Origin: a virus
Direction: 5' to 3' (one strand)
Virus record (IMG/VR): IMGVR_UViG_3300026512_000005
Span: 51,991 to 115,990 of that record
DNA: 64,000 bases
Shown: positions 12,081 through 47,778 of the stretch, piece by piece
Numbering within the stretch: position 1 is the stretch's first letter
How the letters are laid out: each line of letters starts with the position of its first letter
Program-made: the position numbers and the translations under genes
Notes under the pieces: generated by a model
The model's input: the letters and a program-made list of their open reading frames with translations, nothing else
The model's database searches: none
Told to the model about the DNA's origin: nothing

Positions 12081-12399
12081 AGGTTTTACTTATATTTAGA
12101 CCAGAGCCAAGCTCTTCACTCTCCAATTTAACAAGATTGTAATGTTGTACAGTCTCATAAATGTTTATCTTTATAAGATAAGGTTTATTAACTTCCAATA
12201 CAGTGTCTATCGTTTTTATTCTTTTTAAAATTTCATTACGTAGTGCAATGTCAAAATATTCTCTGTAAAAGAATTGTGATACTATCTCTTTATTAACACT
12301 CTTCGATAATATATCATCTATATATTCTATAAACTCTTGTGTATTATTTATATGTAAAAGGATAACACCATCCTTAACCGATACCTCTAAATATTCCAT
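12070..12399 (-). CDS. Hypothetical small protein (109 aa)
   Basis: The last gene of the 13724-12070 - strand run. The start MEYLEVSVKDGVILLHI follows GGAATTAAA, eight bases after the preceding gene. The product is a small alpha/beta protein with an N-terminal hairpin of strands and a central charged helix (NEILKRIKTIDTVLE). There is no known motif. It is probably co-transcribed with the beta-rich 438-residue protein and may be its partner in the tail or baseplate. Confidence 0.68.
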   Translation of the reverse strand: MEYLEVSVKDGVILLHINNTQEFIEYIDDILSKSVNKEIVSQFFYREYFDIALRNEILKRIKTIDTVLEVNKPYLIKINIYETVQHYNLVKLESEELGSGLNISKTLLV

Positions 12400-12407
12400 T
12401 TTAATTC

Positions 12408-13724
12408 CTATAGTTTACGTAATCTCACAATAATTACACCATGTATAAATTTTTTACTTATATCATAATTATAATCAATAGCCTGTACTGTACCAGTTGT
12501 GAACATTGCCTTTTTATCTTTTAGAAACATATATTTAACTGCCATACCGGGTTCTATTATGTTAAAGTCTATGTTTGTTACTCTCATAATAGCCAATAGA
12601 CTTGTATTCTTATTTACATTACTTCTATATTTAAAAGTATTATCATCAAATTTTGTGTTAATAAACTTAGAATAGTCCAACAGTTTTCCATCTATATTCT
12701 CTATCCCATAAAGAGTTTCAGGTGTTACTATTATTTGTTCATCGGTTATCTCAGAAATATTTTGTGTTATTATATCTGATTTAGTTTCTATTATACCTGT
12801 ACCATTCTTGAAACGAACCTCCTCAGTATCATTTTTGAACTCGACGTCACCTACTATTACTTTGTAAGTATCTACGTCATAATACGCGTTAAAATCGTTC
12901 TTATGGTTATAACCTACCGATGGGTTAACAATAAGTAGTTTTGGTAAGTCCTTCTCTTTTTCATATCTATCATAATCAAACATTGGAAATACATTTATAT
13001 TATATGTAACGGTTTTTTGGTTACTTTCTATATTAGAGAAATAGATACCTACATCATGATTATACAAACCATAATCACCCTTTTGTAGAGTATAAGGTAA
13101 CTTGACTACATTCGTAAAAGCTGGTATAAGAATATTTTTATACTCGACTTCATTATCCAAGGGAAAAATATTTAACTTATAATCTAACGGTTTACCTAAA
13201 ACAGTAACATCTTTTAAGTTATAACTAAAGGTACTAGACAGTAGTTTAGTTATAGTTAGATTATGATAACAGCCGGAGGTTACAGTGTTTTTAAGTGCAA
13301 GTGTCAATGGGTCTATTAGTTGTAATACTACCTTCTGTACATCCTGCGTATCTAACGCTTCTGCTGATACATTTCTAATTTTACTATTATAATCTACTGG
13401 TGCTTTGGTGACGACTACTACCTTATATCGTTTAGTAATGGATTTAAGTTTATGTTTAAAAACTAAACTAGCCTCCATATTATCCTTATTACTATAAATC
13501 TTTTTCATAAATTCACCCATACCAATTGTGAACTCTACATTAATATTATCTGTTATATTTGTTGTATAATTGGAATTAACATTTATATTAGTTAATATGT
13601 CTATTGTTAAATCATCATAGTCGATAGTATGTATAACCATTTTAATCTTTGGAAATACAAAAGATGTACTTTTAAGTGTAATATCGATTATCTCTTTGTC
13701 TAATGCCGTTGGTTTAGCTTCCAT
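12408..13724 (-). CDS. Probable baseplate hub or tail structural protein (438 aa)
   Basis: Beta-rich protein with an arrangement reminiscent of baseplate hub (gp27/gpD-like) proteins. Residues 60-140 pair long strands (VVVVTKAPVDYNSKIRN), followed by VVLQLIDPLTLALKNTVTSG and YHNLTITKLLSSTF. The block NILIPAFTNVVKLPYTLQKG and a later GIYFSNIE resemble the second hub domain. The C-terminal part (GMAVKYMFLKDKKAMFTTG) looks like a small beta-barrel. The start follows AGGAGTTTAT. The hub assignment rests on pattern similarity only and is uncertain; the structural role is more likely. Confidence 0.5.
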   Translation of the reverse strand: MEAKPTALDKEIIDITLKSTSFVFPKIKMVIHTIDYDDLTIDILTNINVNSNYTTNITDNINVEFTIGMGEFMKKIYSNKDNMEASLVFKHKLKSITKRYKVVVVTKAPVDYNSKIRNVSAEALDTQDVQKVVLQLIDPLTLALKNTVTSGCYHNLTITKLLSSTFSYNLKDVTVLGKPLDYKLNIFPLDNEVEYKNILIPAFTNVVKLPYTLQKGDYGLYNHDVGIYFSNIESNQKTVTYNINVFPMFDYDRYEKEKDLPKLLIVNPSVGYNHKNDFNAYYDVDTYKVIVGDVEFKNDTEEVRFKNGTGIIETKSDIITQNISEITDEQIIVTPETLYGIENIDGKLLDYSKFINTKFDDNTFKYRSNVNKNTSLLAIMRVTNIDFNIIEPGMAVKYMFLKDKKAMFTTGTVQAIDYNYDISKKFIHGVIIVRLRKL

Positions 13725-33778: not shown

Positions 33779-34264
33779 CTATAATCCTAATATTTTATTT
33801 TGTAGAAATTTAACTTTAACACGTATGGAATTAGCATAAACTTTACTACCATTATAAGCTGTCCATACTTTATTGTAATCCCCATTATAGGCTTTTACTA
33901 ATGTTTGTAATTTATTAATGACATATGTTTCTGCCACATCAGGTTGTGTCATTAAAATTGTGGCATATCTAGAACGATTCCACATGGTATCCTTGACTTT
34001 TATCTCTTTTAAATACCAATAGATATTTATGTGGTATAGTCCGTAATCAGACGACATTTCGCCAACGGTAAGTTGCCATCTACCACCTAGTGATTCGTGC
34101 CAGCATATTGCCGCTAAACTGAAACCAAGGTTATATTGTAAGCCTTTGTAATATGAACTCATGATTACTTCTCGTTCTTTATGAGAAAGTGATAACCAAT
34201 CTTTCTCAATACTCTGTGCATGTAACGTTATAACTATTAATATAGTCATGATTAATGTTTTCAT
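33779..34264 (-). CDS. Exported lytic transglycosylase-like protein (161 aa)
   Basis: A short Sec-type signal peptide (MKTLIMTILIVITLHAQS, likely cut after residue 17) is followed by an SLT-like lysozyme fold. The putative catalytic Glu57 lies in CWHESLGG, then SSDYGLYHINIYWYL (like the GLMQI motif) and TAYNGSKVYANSI (like AYNAG). Such enzymes cleave the glycan backbone of peptidoglycan. A signal peptide means it can reach the periplasm without a holin. It could be the endolysin or a protein that opens the wall for virion assembly or entry. The start follows CAGGAAACAA. Confidence 0.75.
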   Translation of the reverse strand: MKTLIMTILIVITLHAQSIEKDWLSLSHKEREVIMSSYYKGLQYNLGFSLAAICWHESLGGRWQLTVGEMSSDYGLYHINIYWYLKEIKVKDTMWNRSRYATILMTQPDVAETYVINKLQTLVKAYNGDYNKVWTAYNGSKVYANSIRVKVKFLQNKILGL

Positions 34265-34336: not shown

Positions 34337-36172
34337 CTAATATCTAAAAGATCTATATTGTGGCATATTTCTAGCACTACCTGTTGTATGTGTTGTACCA
34401 AAGTTATGAGCTGTAACTCTACCAGCACTATATGCATTTGAGATTGCCTGTAGATTAGTATGGTTATTATTAGACATGTTTGGTGCCTCAATACGTGGTG
34501 TATAGTTAGATCTAGATGCACCTCTTATAAGCGTATCCATAAACGCACCGTTAAGCACTATACGTCGTGCTTTACCAGTAACTACTGGTTTTACTTTAAG
34601 TATACGAGCTAGTTTATCAATTACTTCCAGTCTTAGAGTATAAGGTAAGATACCACGAGTATCTAGACATTGACTATCTGATAAATTAGAGCGTGCCCAA
34701 TCGTAGATCAACTGTTGGTCATTTGTTTTATCCGCTATAAAGGTTGTAGTGATTTCACGGAAATCGTGACGTTCACCATCAGCGTATTCAAAATATCCAA
34801 TTGGTATTGTAAGACCTTCATCAGCTGCTACTTCCATCTCATCAATAGCAAAACCTAATAAATCTTCGGTAGCGGTTAGAATCTCATCATTAGCCATTGC
34901 ACCATAATTAGGATGTCCCAACGTTGTGAATGCAGATGTATATGCAAAGTCTGGACCATAGAATTCAATCTCTACTGCAAATAGAGGCATGTCAGTAAAA
35001 TGTTCCTGAATGATATCCGCAACCATATCTGGTTTAGCTTTAGGATCTTTAAAATCTATGCGTTCACCCAGTTGTTTAGGGTCACCACCATAATTAAATA
35101 AGAAATTTAGCACTCCACCATTTTTCTCTATAATAAGATTTCTAAGGTTGGCGTATGATGTAAATACCGCACTATTGATGATACTCGTTAATACGTGGTT
35201 AAGTGTAGGTACTTTACCAACAAACTCATTTAGAATGATCATAGGCTCTGCTATTTTCGTAGAGACACCACTATACGCATGCGTTTTACTTCTAATAAGA
35301 TAATCCATATAACCTGTTGCTAGTGCAATACGCTTGCGTCCTTCAACATCATTAATACCACGCATAACGGTATTTTTAACTATAGATGACTCGATAAAGA
35401 AATCAGTATGTACCGGTCTACCCAGTTTATTAACTGTAATACCATCGTTAAATGATAGGTCTACATTTAGGTAAGAGTTTCTACTATCTTTAGTTAAAAT
35501 ATTTAAAGTAATATCTCTACCTTTACCTGTATCTTTCATGTAAGCAACATAAAATAAATCGTGTGCTTGTTTAGTCACGATATCAGCCGCTACTAAAACT
35601 GGAGTATTATTAGGTACAACCATACCCTCTAAACTTGCTGTCGGTACATCACCAAAAGCTTTTGATAAAAGGTATTTAACTTTCTCGATTACGGTTCTAT
35701 CAAATCCGTCTGCTGTAACATACAATGCAGTACCGTCTTTCTGGTCCATATCTTCTAGGACTTGCTCTACGGTAAGTGGTTCACGTCCAGTTATCTCCAG
35801 TAAAGCGGCGAAGTAATAGATTTTACCGTTGTCAGCTTGTAGTGCATAAACTATATACGAGTGTCCAATCATGAACTTGTCTTTATCCATTTTAAAAACT
35901 TTGATATTAAGTTTAGAAGATTTCACAACTTCCACAGCACGTGTATAAAATTCTTCTAGGTATTCGTTATCACCGGTTGTACCTGATAGTAAAACATCAG
36001 TGTCGGTTAAACCAAATATTTCTAATTCAGCTGGTGCATCATCAGGTGTAGGTGATACCCCACTAACCTCTTCGTTTGATAATGGTGTACTCGTTTGTGT
36101 TTGTCTTCTCGACGCTCTTGGTGTATTTAGAGTTTCACTTTCATGAATCTCGAATCCTGTGTCTACTGCCAT
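34337..36172 (-). CDS. Conserved 611-aa protein, probably virion structural
   Basis: Disordered N-terminal 50 residues (TPRASRRQTQTSTPLSNEE), a folded alpha/beta body, and an extended Arg/Tyr/Asn-rich tail after residue 555 ending PQYRSFRY. The body includes IGYFEYADGERHDFREITT, ILPYTLRLEVIDKLARILK and VTGKARRIVLNGAFMDTLI, a block order I recall in giant-phage virion proteins. It has its own leader with a TATATTAC element at 36219-36231 and its own end hairpin, suggesting strong separate expression. The size and floppy ends would also fit the chimallin shell protein of nucleus-forming phages. I saw no decisive signature for that. Confidence 0.5.
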   Translation of the reverse strand: MAVDTGFEIHESETLNTPRASRRQTQTSTPLSNEEVSGVSPTPDDAPAELEIFGLTDTDVLLSGTTGDNEYLEEFYTRAVEVVKSSKLNIKVFKMDKDKFMIGHSYIVYALQADNGKIYYFAALLEITGREPLTVEQVLEDMDQKDGTALYVTADGFDRTVIEKVKYLLSKAFGDVPTASLEGMVVPNNTPVLVAADIVTKQAHDLFYVAYMKDTGKGRDITLNILTKDSRNSYLNVDLSFNDGITVNKLGRPVHTDFFIESSIVKNTVMRGINDVEGRKRIALATGYMDYLIRSKTHAYSGVSTKIAEPMIILNEFVGKVPTLNHVLTSIINSAVFTSYANLRNLIIEKNGGVLNFLFNYGGDPKQLGERIDFKDPKAKPDMVADIIQEHFTDMPLFAVEIEFYGPDFAYTSAFTTLGHPNYGAMANDEILTATEDLLGFAIDEMEVAADEGLTIPIGYFEYADGERHDFREITTTFIADKTNDQQLIYDWARSNLSDSQCLDTRGILPYTLRLEVIDKLARILKVKPVVTGKARRIVLNGAFMDTLIRGASRSNYTPRIEAPNMSNNNHTNLQAISNAYSAGRVTAHNFGTTHTTGSARNMPQYRSFRY

Positions 36173-37466: not shown

Positions 37467-38279
37467 ATGAATGCACTAATCTATAGTATAAATAGAATTT
37501 TAAGAGTGATACCGAAGGACATTTTACATTTAGCATTTATGCGAAAAGTTGAATCGTATAATATACCCAAGATGCGAACTACTACGTTGCAACAACAAAT
37601 ACAAGAACTAGTATTGGATAATATTGTTCTTGTAGATATAAACCTGATAAGTGGTATGAGTCTATCTATACCTATTGATAAATGTCATATGTATGAATAT
37701 GAGCATGACAGTGGTTCACGTAATATTGTTATACGAGTACCATTTAATTTAACTAATGATAAACGTATCTCGGCAGTATATAATCTTACTACAAATGGTA
37801 GTAATGTTGATAGTAAAATATCCAAAGGTGATTACATTACTGGACAGATAGGTGAGCAACTTGCTAAAACAACACGTAGTAGCCCTGGTATGGTGTACAC
37901 TGGTCTGGAAATAATCTCTAGTAATACGATATTGGTACATGATGATATTTCTATTATATCAAATGGTTTTCTTAACGTAACTGTTGAGAATAATCGTAAT
38001 CTTAGTAATTTTAAACCCAGAAGTCAAATACAATTTGCTAAGATGGTTGTTCTAGCTGCTAAAATGTTCATTTATAATACACTAATATTAGAGTTAGATA
38101 AAGGTGCATTATATCATGGTCATGAACTAAACAGAATATCCGAAATAATTGATAAGTATGAAAGTGCTGAAGAAGAGTATAATACCTTCCTAGAAACTAA
38201 GTGGCCTAAGATTTCGTTTGTGAATGATGATATCGCAATGTCTAGTTATATAAAACTAATAGCAGGACCGTTACAATAG
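37467..38279 (+). CDS. Probable virion structural protein (270 aa)
   Basis: Starts immediately after the previous gene, with AAAGGA inside the latter's end. N-terminal helices (LQQQIQELVLDNIVLVDIN), then strands (RNIVIRVPFNLTNDKR), a Gly-rich middle and a helical C-terminal domain (FAKMVVLAAKMFIYNTLIL). It is tightly coupled to the 355-residue protein, so the two probably assemble together. The stop is followed by a 28-base hairpin shared with the LamG gene. Confidence 0.55.
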   Translation: MNALIYSINRILRVIPKDILHLAFMRKVESYNIPKMRTTTLQQQIQELVLDNIVLVDINLISGMSLSIPIDKCHMYEYEHDSGSRNIVIRVPFNLTNDKRISAVYNLTTNGSNVDSKISKGDYITGQIGEQLAKTTRSSPGMVYTGLEIISSNTILVHDDISIISNGFLNVTVENNRNLSNFKPRSQIQFAKMVVLAAKMFIYNTLILELDKGALYHGHELNRISEIIDKYESAEEEYNTFLETKWPKISFVNDDIAMSSYIKLIAGPLQ

Positions 38280-38311: not shown

Positions 38312-39670
38312 TTATTTTATTTTTGAGTTACCATATCTGAGTATTACATTAGATAAATGCTTAGCTTCATCCATGTTTAAAGCTTTCTCGTGTATTAATA
38401 AATGTTTTAGCACACCACGTGTTACTTGATCTTTGTCTTTATTAACACCGATATCATCCTGCTCTTGTCCCAACATAATTGCGTTATGTACAGTATTAGG
38501 TAATTCATTAAAATCATAATTACTATCTGTAAATACTTCATCACCATTAACATACATTGTCAAGCCCTTACCCTTCTTAAATGATAGACTATAACTAATA
38601 GTTGTATTAAGTGGAATTTGTACGCCTGTACCGGGACTAATATTGCGGTCATTAACAGTATGTGATAATTTAAGTATACCTTTATAGTTCACTAATAAAA
38701 TATAGTTACCGTATGAACATCTACCGTCTACAGCCCATGACAGAATAGGTCTGAAACCTTCATTATCGTATGACTTGTACGTACCTGAAATAGTAAAATC
38801 TTCGGCATGTGATAGATTTTCTAATAGTACATATCGTTTAATACTTTCATTACTTTTAGGGAACTCTAAACCATCGTTGGTATACCTTAGTAACTCACCA
38901 TCTATACCATCTACTTTGCCAATAACATTTAACGAGTCCTGAGTAAGAGGCCAGTAATCACGTAAAGTATCATTGAAATCAATACCACTAAAATTAACCA
39001 TACGTTTAAAATTCACATTTCTACATTTAGTTACCATACTTGCGTAATAAAGGTTACGTCCTTCACTTACTGTAAGCGTCCCCTTAAATAATCGGGTACT
39101 ACCTAACGTACCTGTGAACGTATACCGCTCGTCACCATTCTTGATAGACCAGAATGAACCTACATATAGTTTACCATTAGCATAATTTATAATTGCTGAT
39201 TTAGTAGAAAATTTACCTGTTATCTGTTTAAGTTTTTGTTTAACACCATCTATAGTTATTTCGTTATTACTGACGTCGTAATTACTGAATTTGACAATTA
39301 GGTGATGTTCCTTACCATCTCTAAAGATATCAGCACTGCAACCATAGATGTCTTTAAACGTAGTATTAAAACCTATTACACCGTCTTTAAAAACAAGACT
39401 ATATGCACCATTACCAAATAGTATCTTAAATCCACCATCTGGATTAACGCTAACCTTTGTCTCTATAGTTAAATTAAAATCGCTATCGTTATCTAAATCG
39501 AATTCACCTATTAATACCTTACCATTTATAAATTTACCTACCTTGCCAGAAGATGTTTTTTCAATCTCAACTGCACCTGTTAGTACTTCTGGTATCTTAC
39601 CCTTAAATTCTAATTCTTTTATTAACTCAGCATTTACTGGTGAGAATTCCAATTTATGTTTTCTATCCAT
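38312..39670 (-). CDS. Two-domain LamG/concanavalin-like lectin protein (452 aa)
   Basis: Two jelly-roll domains of the LamG type are visible. The first covers about residues 40-215 (DFNLTIETKVSVNP, GAYSLVFKDGVIGFNT, DGKEHHLIVKFSNYDV, GTLGSTRLFKGTLT). The second covers about 270-450 (EDFTISGTYKSYDNEGF, YGNYILLVNYKGILKLSH, GLTMYVNGDEVFTDSNYDF, LKHLLIHEKALNMDEAKHL). Such domains bind carbohydrates and are used in phage receptor binding or virion decoration. There is no signal peptide. The start follows AAAGGAAAGATATT. It could be a tail fibre tip or capsid decoration protein. Confidence 0.75.
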   Translation of the reverse strand: MDRKHKLEFSPVNAELIKELEFKGKIPEVLTGAVEIEKTSSGKVGKFINGKVLIGEFDLDNDSDFNLTIETKVSVNPDGGFKILFGNGAYSLVFKDGVIGFNTTFKDIYGCSADIFRDGKEHHLIVKFSNYDVSNNEITIDGVKQKLKQITGKFSTKSAIINYANGKLYVGSFWSIKNGDERYTFTGTLGSTRLFKGTLTVSEGRNLYYASMVTKCRNVNFKRMVNFSGIDFNDTLRDYWPLTQDSLNVIGKVDGIDGELLRYTNDGLEFPKSNESIKRYVLLENLSHAEDFTISGTYKSYDNEGFRPILSWAVDGRCSYGNYILLVNYKGILKLSHTVNDRNISPGTGVQIPLNTTISYSLSFKKGKGLTMYVNGDEVFTDSNYDFNELPNTVHNAIMLGQEQDDIGVNKDKDQVTRGVLKHLLIHEKALNMDEAKHLSNVILRYGNSKIK

Positions 39671-39703: not shown

Positions 39704-39733
39704 GTTAACTATGGTAGTACTACCATAGTTAAC
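39704..39733 (-). terminator. 30-base perfect palindrome after the 106-aa gene
   Basis: GTTAACTATGGTAGT is followed by its exact complement, overlapping the stop codon at 39729. Confidence 0.57.
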
Positions 39734-40049
39734 TCGTTATATAATATTGTTTAAGCTTTTCTATATCCATAAAGATATTTTGTTTTATATCAAGTACACC
39801 ATCTATGAACAATATAAAATCTTTTTCTTTAAGGTTTACTATAAAACTTATATCAGTAGCGGTTGGAGAAACATTAATATAAAACTCACTCATAACCAAT
39901 GTACAATTACTGTATTTGTGATTGACAATTATATTATTACATTGTTCGATAGAGTCGGTCCGTTCATCCTCAATATCATTCATACCTAGTACTAAAGAGG
40001 TAGTTGTCCTACCTCTATTTTGTTCATCATCGGTTATAATTACAGCCAT
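39729..40049 (-). CDS. Hypothetical small protein (106 aa)
   Basis: Starts MAVIITDDEQNRGRTT after AAGGAATTTAATAAC. Beta-rich, with SNCTLVMSEFYINVSPTATD and FIVNLKEKDFILFIDG, a pattern typical of small decoration or fibre-associated domains. No motif recognised. It lies 13 bases after the cytochrome-domain gene and ends inside a 30-base perfect palindrome. Confidence 0.65.
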   Translation of the reverse strand: MAVIITDDEQNRGRTTTSLVLGMNDIEDERTDSIEQCNNIIVNHKYSNCTLVMSEFYINVSPTATDISFIVNLKEKDFILFIDGVLDIKQNIFMDIEKLKQYYITS

Positions 40050-40062
40050 GTTATTAAATTCC

Positions 40063-40560
40063 TTACTTCAATGTTTTCCAGATCTTACCTAGCGTATAGT
40101 TATCAATAGTTTCTTCTGGGATAGGAGGCATCATAATACCATTCTTAGTACGACCACCCTTTCTTACATATGCCTTAAATTTTTCTACATCAGTGAATAT
40201 TGAACCTAGGTCACTTATCATCATATCTGGGGTATTATGACACGTCATACATACTGTACCATTTAACACACCAACACTCTTTTTATACTCATCAAAACTT
40301 TCTAGTACGAAATCTAATTTACTTTCTACTACATTATTCCGTTCAGCTATTTTTTGTACTGGAATATATGTAAGTATAGATATTATAAATATCAGTAGGA
40401 TTATGTATATATTAAATTTTTGTAGCGGTTGGTCTGATAATACTCGTTGTTCCATAACATAATCATATATATCATCTATCTTTTGTACATATATAGGAAT
40501 GAGTTCCTGATGTACTTCACCCATATCCTCTTCTATAGTTGATGTTTCACCTTTCTTCAT
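40063..40560 (-). CDS. Membrane-anchored c-type cytochrome domain protein (165 aa)
   Basis: Residues 1-48 are an acidic cytosolic-looking helix. Residues 49-66 are one membrane span (IYIILLIFIISILTYIPV). Residues 98-165 match a class I mono-haem cytochrome c: C104-M-T-C107-H108 is the CxxCH haem attachment motif. YVRKGGRTKNGIMMPPIPEE carries a candidate axial Met (143 or 144) before PP, as in respiratory cytochromes, and a final helix (NYTLGKIWKTLK) follows. If the C-terminus is periplasmic, haem would be attached by the host Ccm system. Charges around the span do not settle topology. The start follows AAGGATAACC, seven bases after the holin-like gene. Confidence 0.75.
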   Translation of the reverse strand: MKKGETSTIEEDMGEVHQELIPIYVQKIDDIYDYVMEQRVLSDQPLQKFNIYIILLIFIISILTYIPVQKIAERNNVVESKLDFVLESFDEYKKSVGVLNGTVCMTCHNTPDMMISDLGSIFTDVEKFKAYVRKGGRTKNGIMMPPIPEETIDNYTLGKIWKTLK

Positions 40561-40566
40561 AATAGG

Positions 40567-40941
40567 TTATCCTTTCTTGTTTTTATTTATCCCTAGATCT
40601 TCTTTACTCATTTCTTCTACAGTTTTAACAACCTTAGCCTGTAACATACTGAATACTTCACCACTTGCAGTTGCTACTAAACAGCTTATAAAAATAACTA
40701 AATTAATATCATTAATATATTTTAAATAATCAAGTAGTAAGTAAGTACCTATACCCACAAAGCCACCTATTAGCATATTCACAAAGAAATAAACTCGTTC
40801 ATAACTCCAGTTTATTTCACCATTATTATTGCGTGCGATTATCTTCTTGTTATTTAACAACTTCCACGATCTACTCATGATCGCAACTGCCCCAGCCAAT
40901 AAGTAAATTAATACATATAATAGGTAATCAAATTTGTCCAT
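40567..40941 (-). CDS. Putative holin, LydA-like, three membrane spans (124 aa)
   Basis: Three hydrophobic segments at about residues 6-24 (YLLYVLIYLLAGAVAIMS), 50-68 (VYFFVNMLIGGFVGIGTYLL) and 78-98 (NLVIFISCLVATASGEVFSM), with a charged C-terminal tail (EEMSKEDLGINKNKKG). The Gly-rich second span and the ATASGE motif in the third resemble LydA-type phage holins, which make the inner-membrane lesion at lysis. There is no strong Shine-Dalgarno sequence before the start, and low expression would suit a holin. No endolysin is adjacent; the transglycosylase-like gene lies 6 kb away. Confidence 0.55.
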   Translation of the reverse strand: MDKFDYLLYVLIYLLAGAVAIMSRSWKLLNNKKIIARNNNGEINWSYERVYFFVNMLIGGFVGIGTYLLLDYLKYINDINLVIFISCLVATASGEVFSMLQAKVVKTVEEMSKEDLGINKNKKG

Positions 40942-41107: not shown

Positions 41108-41509
41108 ATGTTCTTTTGTACGTATCTTGATGTAAACATCCTTTCCGGACAGCCACGGTAAGTCGTACCTCATAGTATATATAATATTTTGTACTACAAT
41201 ACCTTCTACACCTATACACCTTCCCTTTTCAGCTAGTGGTACCATTAACTTAATGCGAACACTTTGATACTTCTTAAGCTTATTCTGTGGTATAATAACA
41301 TACCCGATAGGTAAAGTTATAATATAGTATCGATATTTATATTTAGATGTACCATTATTAATATCTTCTAATAATTCTATAAAATCATCTTCTTCCTCTT
41401 TAGAATAATCCTTTCCTAGAACATCTTCTACAGTGAAACTATAAAACATCCTAGGTACGAACCCTTTAATTATTAATAGATTACTTCTATACTTAATTTG
41501 TCTTTCCAT
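41096..41509 (-). CDS. Hypothetical protein (137 aa)
   Basis: The start is ATG at 41509 (MERQIKYRSNLLI), overlapping the preceding TGA stop by one base, with AAGGATAATTG upstream. A TTG one codon earlier is possible. Beta-rich, with RYYIITLPIGYVIIPQ and SVRIKLMVPLAEKGRC. No family is recognised. Coupled expression with the YkgJ-type cysteine cluster protein suggests a joint role. Confidence 0.65.
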   Translation of the reverse strand: MERQIKYRSNLLIIKGFVPRMFYSFTVEDVLGKDYSKEEEDDFIELLEDINNGTSKYKYRYYIITLPIGYVIIPQNKLKKYQSVRIKLMVPLAEKGRCIGVEGIVVQNIIYTMRYDLPWLSGKDVYIKIRTKEHISE

Positions 41510-41973
41510 CAATTATCCTTCAATTGCTGCTCACCCATGAATTTTGCGAACATCTCTATAGTGTATTCATAACTACGTTTATGTGCCATGAGTACTACGT
41601 TAGTTGTATCCTCAGGGATTTCTGTTAACCCTGCATAACCACACTGGCTGTATTTTTTACTGCCATAATCTTTACATATAATCGGACGATCTGCATATAC
41701 ACTACATTTGTTGTCTTTGTAAAAGACACACTTCTTACTAATGTCTATCGCCTGACCCTTGGGGGATAGTCTAAATGTATCACCTTTTCCAGGGTTATGC
41801 TGTTTAGTTATATGTTTAAACGAATACTTCGCTGACAGTCTTTTAATGTCATCCTTCGTAAAAATAACATCCTGACTACAGCACTCACCACCACATTCAT
41901 CGCATGGTAACCTACCTGTAATCTCCTCTTGACGCAAAAAATTCATGAACTCACTATTGAGCATCTCATCCAT
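41509..41973 (-). CDS. YkgJ-family cysteine cluster protein (154 aa)
   Basis: Has the eight-cysteine arrangement of the YkgJ/UPF0153 putative zinc- or iron-chelating domain: C24-DE-C27-GGE-C31-C32, then C82, C90 in CSVYADRPIIC with C100, and C111. The block NKCSVYADRPIICKDYG is the family signature (CxxYxxRPxxC). Cellular members are poorly characterised, and metal binding is inferred from the cysteines. The start follows AAGGAGATAGT. It lies 1.4 kb from the cytochrome domain gene on the same strand, so two metal-dependent small proteins are clustered. Confidence 0.85.
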   Translation of the reverse strand: MDEMLNSEFMNFLRQEEITGRLPCDECGGECCSQDVIFTKDDIKRLSAKYSFKHITKQHNPGKGDTFRLSPKGQAIDISKKCVFYKDNKCSVYADRPIICKDYGSKKYSQCGYAGLTEIPEDTTNVVLMAHKRSYEYTIEMFAKFMGEQQLKDN

Positions 41974-45621: not shown

Positions 45622-47778
45622 ATGTTACAACATAGAAGTTTGGAATATGAATTTAATAGTAGAACTCATAGATATAAGATAAAAATAGACAAAGCTCTAA
45701 TGGTAGAGAAAGCTATTAAAAAGTTAATAGGTAAGACGGCAGTCAAACACATGTTTATTAAAGTTAATAATATCGGTTTTGAAGTATATGATTTCTTTCT
45801 TCTAGAGTTAGAGTTCTGTCTAAACTTCATGAAAGAGGAAAACCATATTTTAGCTTTAGATATTGGTGGTATTGTACTCAATGATTTACTAGATTTTCTA
45901 CGTACTAAAACATGGTTACATAGTAGACACATTGTTAATACTAAGAAATTATTTGATTTCAACAATTTAAAAAAGAATATGTTATATATGCCATTGGAAC
46001 ATCAAGTCAGTGCCTTTGATAAATATGAAGAAATTAAACAATATGCTAATTTAAAAGGCGGTATGTTGGATATTGCTGCTGGTGGCGGTAAAACCTTTTC
46101 TTCTTTAGCCATGGTCGAATTATTAGACTACGATTTAGTTATAATAATAGCACCTAAAAACACGTTAGGTGAAGTATGGGAGAAATCAGTTAGTGAAGAA
46201 CTATACAGACAGAAACAAAGCAATGTTATACTTGGTACCAATAGTAAGGTTTATAACAACGAAAAGTTTATAATAACACATTATCAATATGTAGAGAAAA
46301 TACTTAAAGATAAGAAATTAGCACGACGTGTTAAAAGATTAAAACCTGCATTAATTATTGATGAGTTCCATAACCTTAACGAAATTAAGTCAGAACGTAC
46401 GAATAACATCCTTAATTTTATTAACTACATCAAGTTCAGGGATGTTATTTTATTAACAGGTACCCCCATTAAAATGGTCGTGAACGAACTAGTTCCTATG
46501 TTGTATATACTAGATGATAAATTCCCAAAGGTTGTAGACAGATTTAAAGAATTCTATAGAAGTCTAACTGGTATAAAAGTCGACCTAATTAGACATAGAT
46601 TTAATCTATATAGAAAACGTATAGAAAATACAAATCCAAGTATGGGTAATATTGAATTAATAGAATATAAACTTAAGGTTCCTGATGGCGAACAATATAC
46701 TATGGGGAATATCAATGCACGTATGACTGAATATAAACATACTAGATTAGAAGAGTTATTTAATCATATGGATGAATATGAATTACAGTTCTATACCTAC
46801 ATAGATAGTATGTCTGATTTATATAAGAAGGATGATGCTTTCATAGAGTCTAAAGAAAAAATAAAACGGTATAGACGATTGGTAAAGATAATACGTAAGG
46901 CTTCTGACGATAACAAATTATTTAATTTCTATACAGAGGTTAGTGAAGCTTCATTAATAGAAAAAGAATGGATATTACCAAAGTTAAAAGGTTATGATAA
47001 ACACAACTTTAAACAATTACGTTCTATTATTAAATACCCCAAACTGAAGGTACTTGGCGAAGCGTTGGGTAAAATATTGTTAGGTAGTAGAATACGTTGT
47101 TATACATCTCTAGCGGAACAGATTGACTACAAGAAACACCTTTTATTAACCAATAAGAAAGGTCTAGTATTTAGTAACTATATATCGGTATGTAATGTGG
47201 CGGTAGAACGTTGTCGTAAACAAGGTTATAACCCAGTAGGTGTATATGGTGATTTAATAGATAACTTAGATAATAATGTTAAACAGTTTAATGACTTAGA
47301 GACGGACATTAACCCTATCATAGCTACCTATAAATCACTAAGTACTGGCGTACCTTTACCATCTGCTAATATCGTTATACTCATAGATGTGCCGATGCGT
47401 GTTTATAATTTAGAACAGGCTATAAGTAGGTCTTATAGACTTGGTAACTATGAAGATGTTCTAGTTCTGTTTACAAAACTTGATACTGGTACAGAATTTA
47501 ATATAACTGAACGTGATTTATTTATAGTAAATACTAGTGAACATAATGTTGAGTTAATAACTGGTACTAGTCCAGTTTTCGATACACCTAAACAGGACTT
47601 ACCACTATCAGAATTAGAAGACGATGAAGACGATGATGGTGAAGTCATAAACGAGATAAAAGAAGAAATAGAGGAGATAGTATTAGCCGAGTTTAACAAG
47701 ATGGATGTTAAAATAAAACTTGGTACTAATCCATTAGATTATGTTAAATCAGTTTTAAAAAAGATAACTTTCATATAG
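45622..47778 (+). CDS. SF2 DNA helicase, UvsW/SNF2-like (718 aa)
   Basis: Superfamily 2 helicase with motifs in order: Walker A in AAGGGKTF (K157, T158), IIIAPKNTLGEVW (motif Ia), ALIIDEFHNL (DEFH, residues 247-250), ILLTGTPIKM (motif III, 279-282), then KGLVFSNYISVC and LDVPMRVYNLEQ-like text followed by QAISRSYRLG (motif VI). A helical insertion sits between the two RecA domains. The C-terminus has a very acidic stretch (SELEDDEDDDGEVINE). Phage relatives such as T4 UvsW handle branched DNA and origin R-loops. It lies directly downstream of the GC-rich inverted-repeat segment. Confidence 0.88.
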   Translation: MLQHRSLEYEFNSRTHRYKIKIDKALMVEKAIKKLIGKTAVKHMFIKVNNIGFEVYDFFLLELEFCLNFMKEENHILALDIGGIVLNDLLDFLRTKTWLHSRHIVNTKKLFDFNNLKKNMLYMPLEHQVSAFDKYEEIKQYANLKGGMLDIAAGGGKTFSSLAMVELLDYDLVIIIAPKNTLGEVWEKSVSEELYRQKQSNVILGTNSKVYNNEKFIITHYQYVEKILKDKKLARRVKRLKPALIIDEFHNLNEIKSERTNNILNFINYIKFRDVILLTGTPIKMVVNELVPMLYILDDKFPKVVDRFKEFYRSLTGIKVDLIRHRFNLYRKRIENTNPSMGNIELIEYKLKVPDGEQYTMGNINARMTEYKHTRLEELFNHMDEYELQFYTYIDSMSDLYKKDDAFIESKEKIKRYRRLVKIIRKASDDNKLFNFYTEVSEASLIEKEWILPKLKGYDKHNFKQLRSIIKYPKLKVLGEALGKILLGSRIRCYTSLAEQIDYKKHLLLTNKKGLVFSNYISVCNVAVERCRKQGYNPVGVYGDLIDNLDNNVKQFNDLETDINPIIATYKSLSTGVPLPSANIVILIDVPMRVYNLEQAISRSYRLGNYEDVLVLFTKLDTGTEFNITERDLFIVNTSEHNVELITGTSPVFDTPKQDLPLSELEDDEDDDGEVINEIKEEIEEIVLAEFNKMDVKIKLGTNPLDYVKSVLKKITFI

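Follow-up and report, generated by a model that had tools for sequence, protein, structure and literature searches.

In the membrane-anchored cytochrome cy and cytochrome c552 of Rhodobacter and Paracoccus, an N-terminal membrane span is followed by a linker and a C-terminal class I domain located outside the membrane. The linker of cytochrome cy comprises 69 residues and its domain 100 residues, with linkers of 45-69 aa having been reported (PMC7876108). Viral respiratory genes have been recognized in viromes as oxidase subunits, for example subunit I of the cbb3 oxidase (PMC3474794), and in work on viral denitrification genes, none of the phages covered was seen to have a cytochrome carrier (PMC8115048).

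The 165-aa open reading frame (ORF) considered here displays the same order of elements as cytochrome cy, with the side of the membrane predicted, but differs by a domain of ~75 residues, a 48-residue acidic tail before the span and a linker of ~20-35 aa, where cytochrome cy combines its anchor with a linker of at least ~45 residues. With the respiratory genes of viromes the ORF would share the link to host respiratory electron transport, although those genes encode oxidase subunits and not a stand-alone carrier.

The gene cassette

The window, the whole 64,000-nucleotide stretch of DNA analysed, covers bases 51991-115990 of a 115,990-bp IMG/VR virus record. The features of the locus are as follows.

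39704..39733, minus strand: terminator-like hairpin, 13 pairs, T-rich tail
39729..40049, minus strand: 106-aa ORF, function not assigned, final gene of the run
40063-40560, minus strand: 165-aa cytochrome-like ORF with ATG start
residues 1-48 of this ORF: acidic N-tail
40357..40413, minus strand: single membrane span, residues 50-68, best 19-residue window with hydropathy 2.38
residues ~70-95: helical linker
40066..40293, minus strand: cytochrome c-like domain, residues 90-165 (alignment A3)
40237..40251, minus strand: CMTCH (C104-M-T-C107-H108), pattern of a haem c attachment motif, residues 104-108
40123..40134, minus strand: MMPP, residues 143-146
40570..40578, minus strand: probable ribosome-binding site AAGAAAGGA, 9 nt 5' of the ATG of the cytochrome-like ORF, within the end of the upstream gene
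40567-40941, minus strand: holin-like protein, 124 aa, three hydrophobic spans, basic inner loop, K-rich C-tail

Coordinates and strand of the cytochrome-like ORF agree with the ORF list. The holin-like gene, the cytochrome-like ORF and the 106-aa ORF run head to tail and are closed by the terminator-like hairpin, with a gap of 6 bp between the upstream holin-like gene and the cytochrome-like ORF. The holin-like protein resembles class I holins and is N-out/C-in by charge. A holin-like neighbour, as originally proposed, is plausible in view of the three spans and the K-rich tail, whereas the match to the PHROG holin family phrog_785 is weak (E 0.41); judged from its sequence, the gene probably encodes a three-span holin. 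A likely endolysin, matching phrog_669, is located at record position 12083-12985, ~80 kb from the locus.

The codon score of the cytochrome-like ORF, 0.218, lies inside the phage core range of 0.155-0.276, and this phage-like codon usage together with the intact ribosome-binding site suggests a long-kept working gene. Two further genes are close by. Adjoining the cassette, between two terminator-like hairpins, 38312-39670 (minus strand) encodes a Laminin-G-like protein of 452 aa (PF13385, E 3.6e-10), for which IMG/VR gave no close relative. At 41509-41973 (minus strand), a YkgJ-like gene encoding a CxxCxxCC protein (PF03692, E 6.9e-11) has a codon score of 0.021 versus the same core range and a GC3 of 0.368, and looks recently acquired.

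Likeness to class I cytochromes c

The ORF, its membrane span, the order and spacing of its motifs and its statistical likeness to cytochrome c were computed here. Translation confirmed the CxxCH predicted at C104, C107 and H108, and the single membrane span expected before it is indeed one strong span. As the CxxCH DNA pattern occurs near chance in the window (five matches versus 2.7 expected, which is not unusual), the case for a cytochrome depends on the entire layout. The combination of a membrane span and CxxCH in one ORF was found in none of the 4,205 ORFs of 2.19 Mb from the other parts of the record and related jumbo phages, a set with 12 occurrences of CxxCH and some overlapping stretches.

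The HMM comparison envisaged with the original prediction retrieved a cytochrome c family. With the isolated domain, PF13442 (Cytochrome_CBB3) was the only Pfam family found (E 0.018, profile positions 12-64 of 68), but its 15.8 bits stay below the curated cut-off of 27 bits; with the whole protein, PF13442 came third (E 0.094) after two other weak matches. The match disappeared upon in silico mutation of CxxCH and was absent in seven of seven shuffles of the domain that preserved CxxCH.

In common with the class I domains of PF13442, the ORF has CxxCH near the domain start, Met-Pro 39-40 positions further on, ~21 residues from there to the C-terminus and a similar length. It differs by scoring below the family cut-off, by only 12-28% identity to the sampled cellular domains and by lacking the glycine-rich stretch that most of them possess after CxxCH. 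In an alignment with nine cellular cytochrome domains, CxxCH and Met-Pro are the only invariant elements, and both are in register in the ORF. The proposed axial Met has its counterpart: M144-P145 falls on the axial Met-Pro that is invariant in cytochromes c, the Cys1-to-Met spacing of 39-40 (M143/M144) lies within the 30-67 of cellular domains, and the PF13442 match drops by 2.8 bits when MM is mutated.

Statistical comparisons point in the same direction with different force. Aligned by hhalign against 21 cellular cytochrome domains, the domain reached Prob 94.6 and a score of 39.3, which none of 300 CxxCH-preserving shuffles attained (best score 36.9), and a profile built from the same 21 domains ranked the ORF first (E 0.032; runner-up 0.35) among the 1,303 ORFs of the window's record and seven related records. 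With a small local HMM the domain beat 97.5% of the CxxCH-preserving shuffles; because 505 of the 20,000 scored as well, the signal beyond CxxCH is modest. AlphaFold models built without homologues are too weak to use (pLDDT 40.4 and 47.6) and do not confirm the fold; the helices occur in the expected cytochrome order in one model, but its pLDDT is only 47.6. Compared with PDB folds, the weak model had seven matches, four of them class I cytochromes c and every one with E >1, and a search among viral folds found nothing. A zinc ribbon was ruled out because the ORF has only two Cys, both in CMTCH. Cumulatively, motif order, spacing and anchor agree with the class I cytochrome c-like layout originally proposed, whereas the family match remains below cut-off and the fold is not confirmed; sequence comparison lends the class I cytochrome c reading moderate support.

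Neither tblastn against 50,697 phage records nor searches that reach close relatives only, in IMG/VR and in GTDB with a single genome per species (84,980 species), returned a relative of the ORF; plasmids (by tblastn) and the PDB gave nothing meaningful, the exact DNA pattern for CMTCHNT is absent from IMG/VR, and searches there with the operon partners and neighbours of the ORF found no relatives. INPHARED gave no match to two cytochrome queries, one a cellular domain and the other an approximate c553-like sequence that is not a database entry. Among related jumbo-phage records, 0 of 73 (48 + 25) showed PF13442 above cut-off, with sub-threshold fragments only; since the search of the 48 records missed the window's own ORF, equally diverged cytochromes would escape too. 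Profile A3, which includes the ORF itself, matched only this ORF. No class I cytochrome c of a phage came up in the literature searched, which leaves room for published examples. As far as these searches reach, the rarity of c-type cytochromes in phages asserted earlier holds in INPHARED and in the related records. Outside the window, residues 220-294 of the 299 of phrog_16981, a PHROGs family with no assigned function, match a cellular cytochrome c domain (E 0.00038), so that this family is possibly another phage cytochrome.

Possible roles of the protein

We tentatively propose, with somewhat less than even confidence, that the ORF encodes a small mono-haem c-type cytochrome which is tethered to the host inner membrane and exchanges electrons with carriers in the host periplasm or with a terminal oxidase. 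In this proposal we infer the attachment of haem, the topology, the transfer of electrons and the partner. The N-tail would reside in the cytosol, the one span would anchor the protein in the inner membrane and the C-terminal domain of ~70-75 residues would fold in the periplasm, where the host cytochrome c maturation machinery would attach haem to C104/C107, and H108 and M144 would be the axial ligands. In the infected cell, the protein may exchange electrons with these carriers or a terminal oxidase, as membrane-anchored cytochrome cy does, by which the respiratory electron flow of the host would be kept up or diverted. The charges around the span are balanced and do not decide the topology; if CxxCH is a haem site, it likely lies in the periplasm.

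It is somewhat unlikely that the ORF is a phage-specific membrane protein of another kind, with the two Cys in a disulfide or CxxCH as an accident. Such a protein would be consistent with the PF13442 score under the cut-off, the lack of homologues in the phage records, IMG/VR and GTDB as searched, the 2.5% of CxxCH-preserving shuffles that equal the domain with the small HMM and the unconfirmed fold, but the coincidence of CxxCH with the Met-Pro spacing, the terminal segment and the membrane span, the hhalign control with 0/300 and the 0/4,205 ORFs of related phage DNA with both span and CxxCH argue against it. Recent capture from the host as an auxiliary metabolic gene is very unlikely. Class I cytochromes c are cellular proteins and the locus is situated in a stretch that is variable among related phages; the codon score within the phage core range, however, does not indicate recent capture, and no near cellular relative emerged among the GTDB species in a search sensitive to close relatives, which leaves the earlier suggestion of host-derived cargo without support as far as recent capture is concerned.

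A haem c domain might alternatively serve lysis as a periplasmic, membrane-anchored redox sensor that, like an antiholin, holds back or sets off the holin-like protein encoded next to it, tying lysis timing to host respiration, a role we regard as unlikely. The 6-bp spacing to a probable class I holin with three spans and the common terminator would fit this role. Phage lysis regulators such as T4 RI have a general layout of one span, a helical linker and a periplasmic domain, which the predicted architecture resembles, and the ORF shares one span, a helical part and a holin-like neighbour with lysis regulators and i-spanins (T4 RI, Rz). To our knowledge, these proteins carry no haem motif, and no sequence similarity of the ORF to them was found. 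Against a role in lysis stand the weak holin call, the distance to the likely endolysin and the composition of jumbo-phage operons, which frequently combine unrelated genes. From the adjacency to the holin-like gene, a link to lysis is merely conceivable. Quite improbable is a combination, in which the phage would make its own membrane-tethered haem c protein that, with the adjacent holin, reads or drains host respiratory electrons and so sets the energy state or the moment of lysis.

Should the tethered cytochrome bind haem, the phage would contribute a periplasmic electron carrier that stands alone, a kind of which our searches of the phage collection and the related jumbo phages yielded no example, and would depend on the host cytochrome c maturation system for it. 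Whether phages steer respiration or lysis via the redox chain could then be tested directly.

The virus record and its variable interval

Two genes place the record among the phages:

34337-36172: chimallin-like nuclear shell protein (phrog_4795, E 5.5e-17)
45622-47778: jumbo-phage helicase (phrog_62, E 2.2e-51)

Judged from its chimallin and jumbo-phage core genes, the record is a deep relative of nucleus-forming jumbo phages. The best matches in named phages are distant, with 29-35% identity for the helicase and 21-31% for chimallin, and a scan of IMG/VR with a helicase alignment brought up six nearer records with 42-58% identity. The gene order flanking the locus on both sides is common to the nearer records, and between the homologues of 37467-38279 and the helicase the content differs among related phages. 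In G001, G005 and G006, the three records in which this interval is uninterrupted, it holds neither an ORF with CxxCH nor relatives of the holin-like or Laminin-G-like genes. We noticed no further respiratory genes in the record.

Adjoining the chimallin-like gene, 33779-34264 (minus strand) encodes a signal-peptide-like protein with weak similarity to SLT transglycosylases (phrog_600, E 3e-19) and relatives in three near records; the signal peptides in the record give the impression of being Campylobacterota-like. In two near relatives, the helicases at G001:C1:33089-36007 and G005:C1:59310-62399 are interrupted at the Walker A site (GK/T) by an insertion of at least ~250 aa. It ends like an intein (VTHN before T) but starts with a residue other than Cys, and the helicase of the window does not have it.
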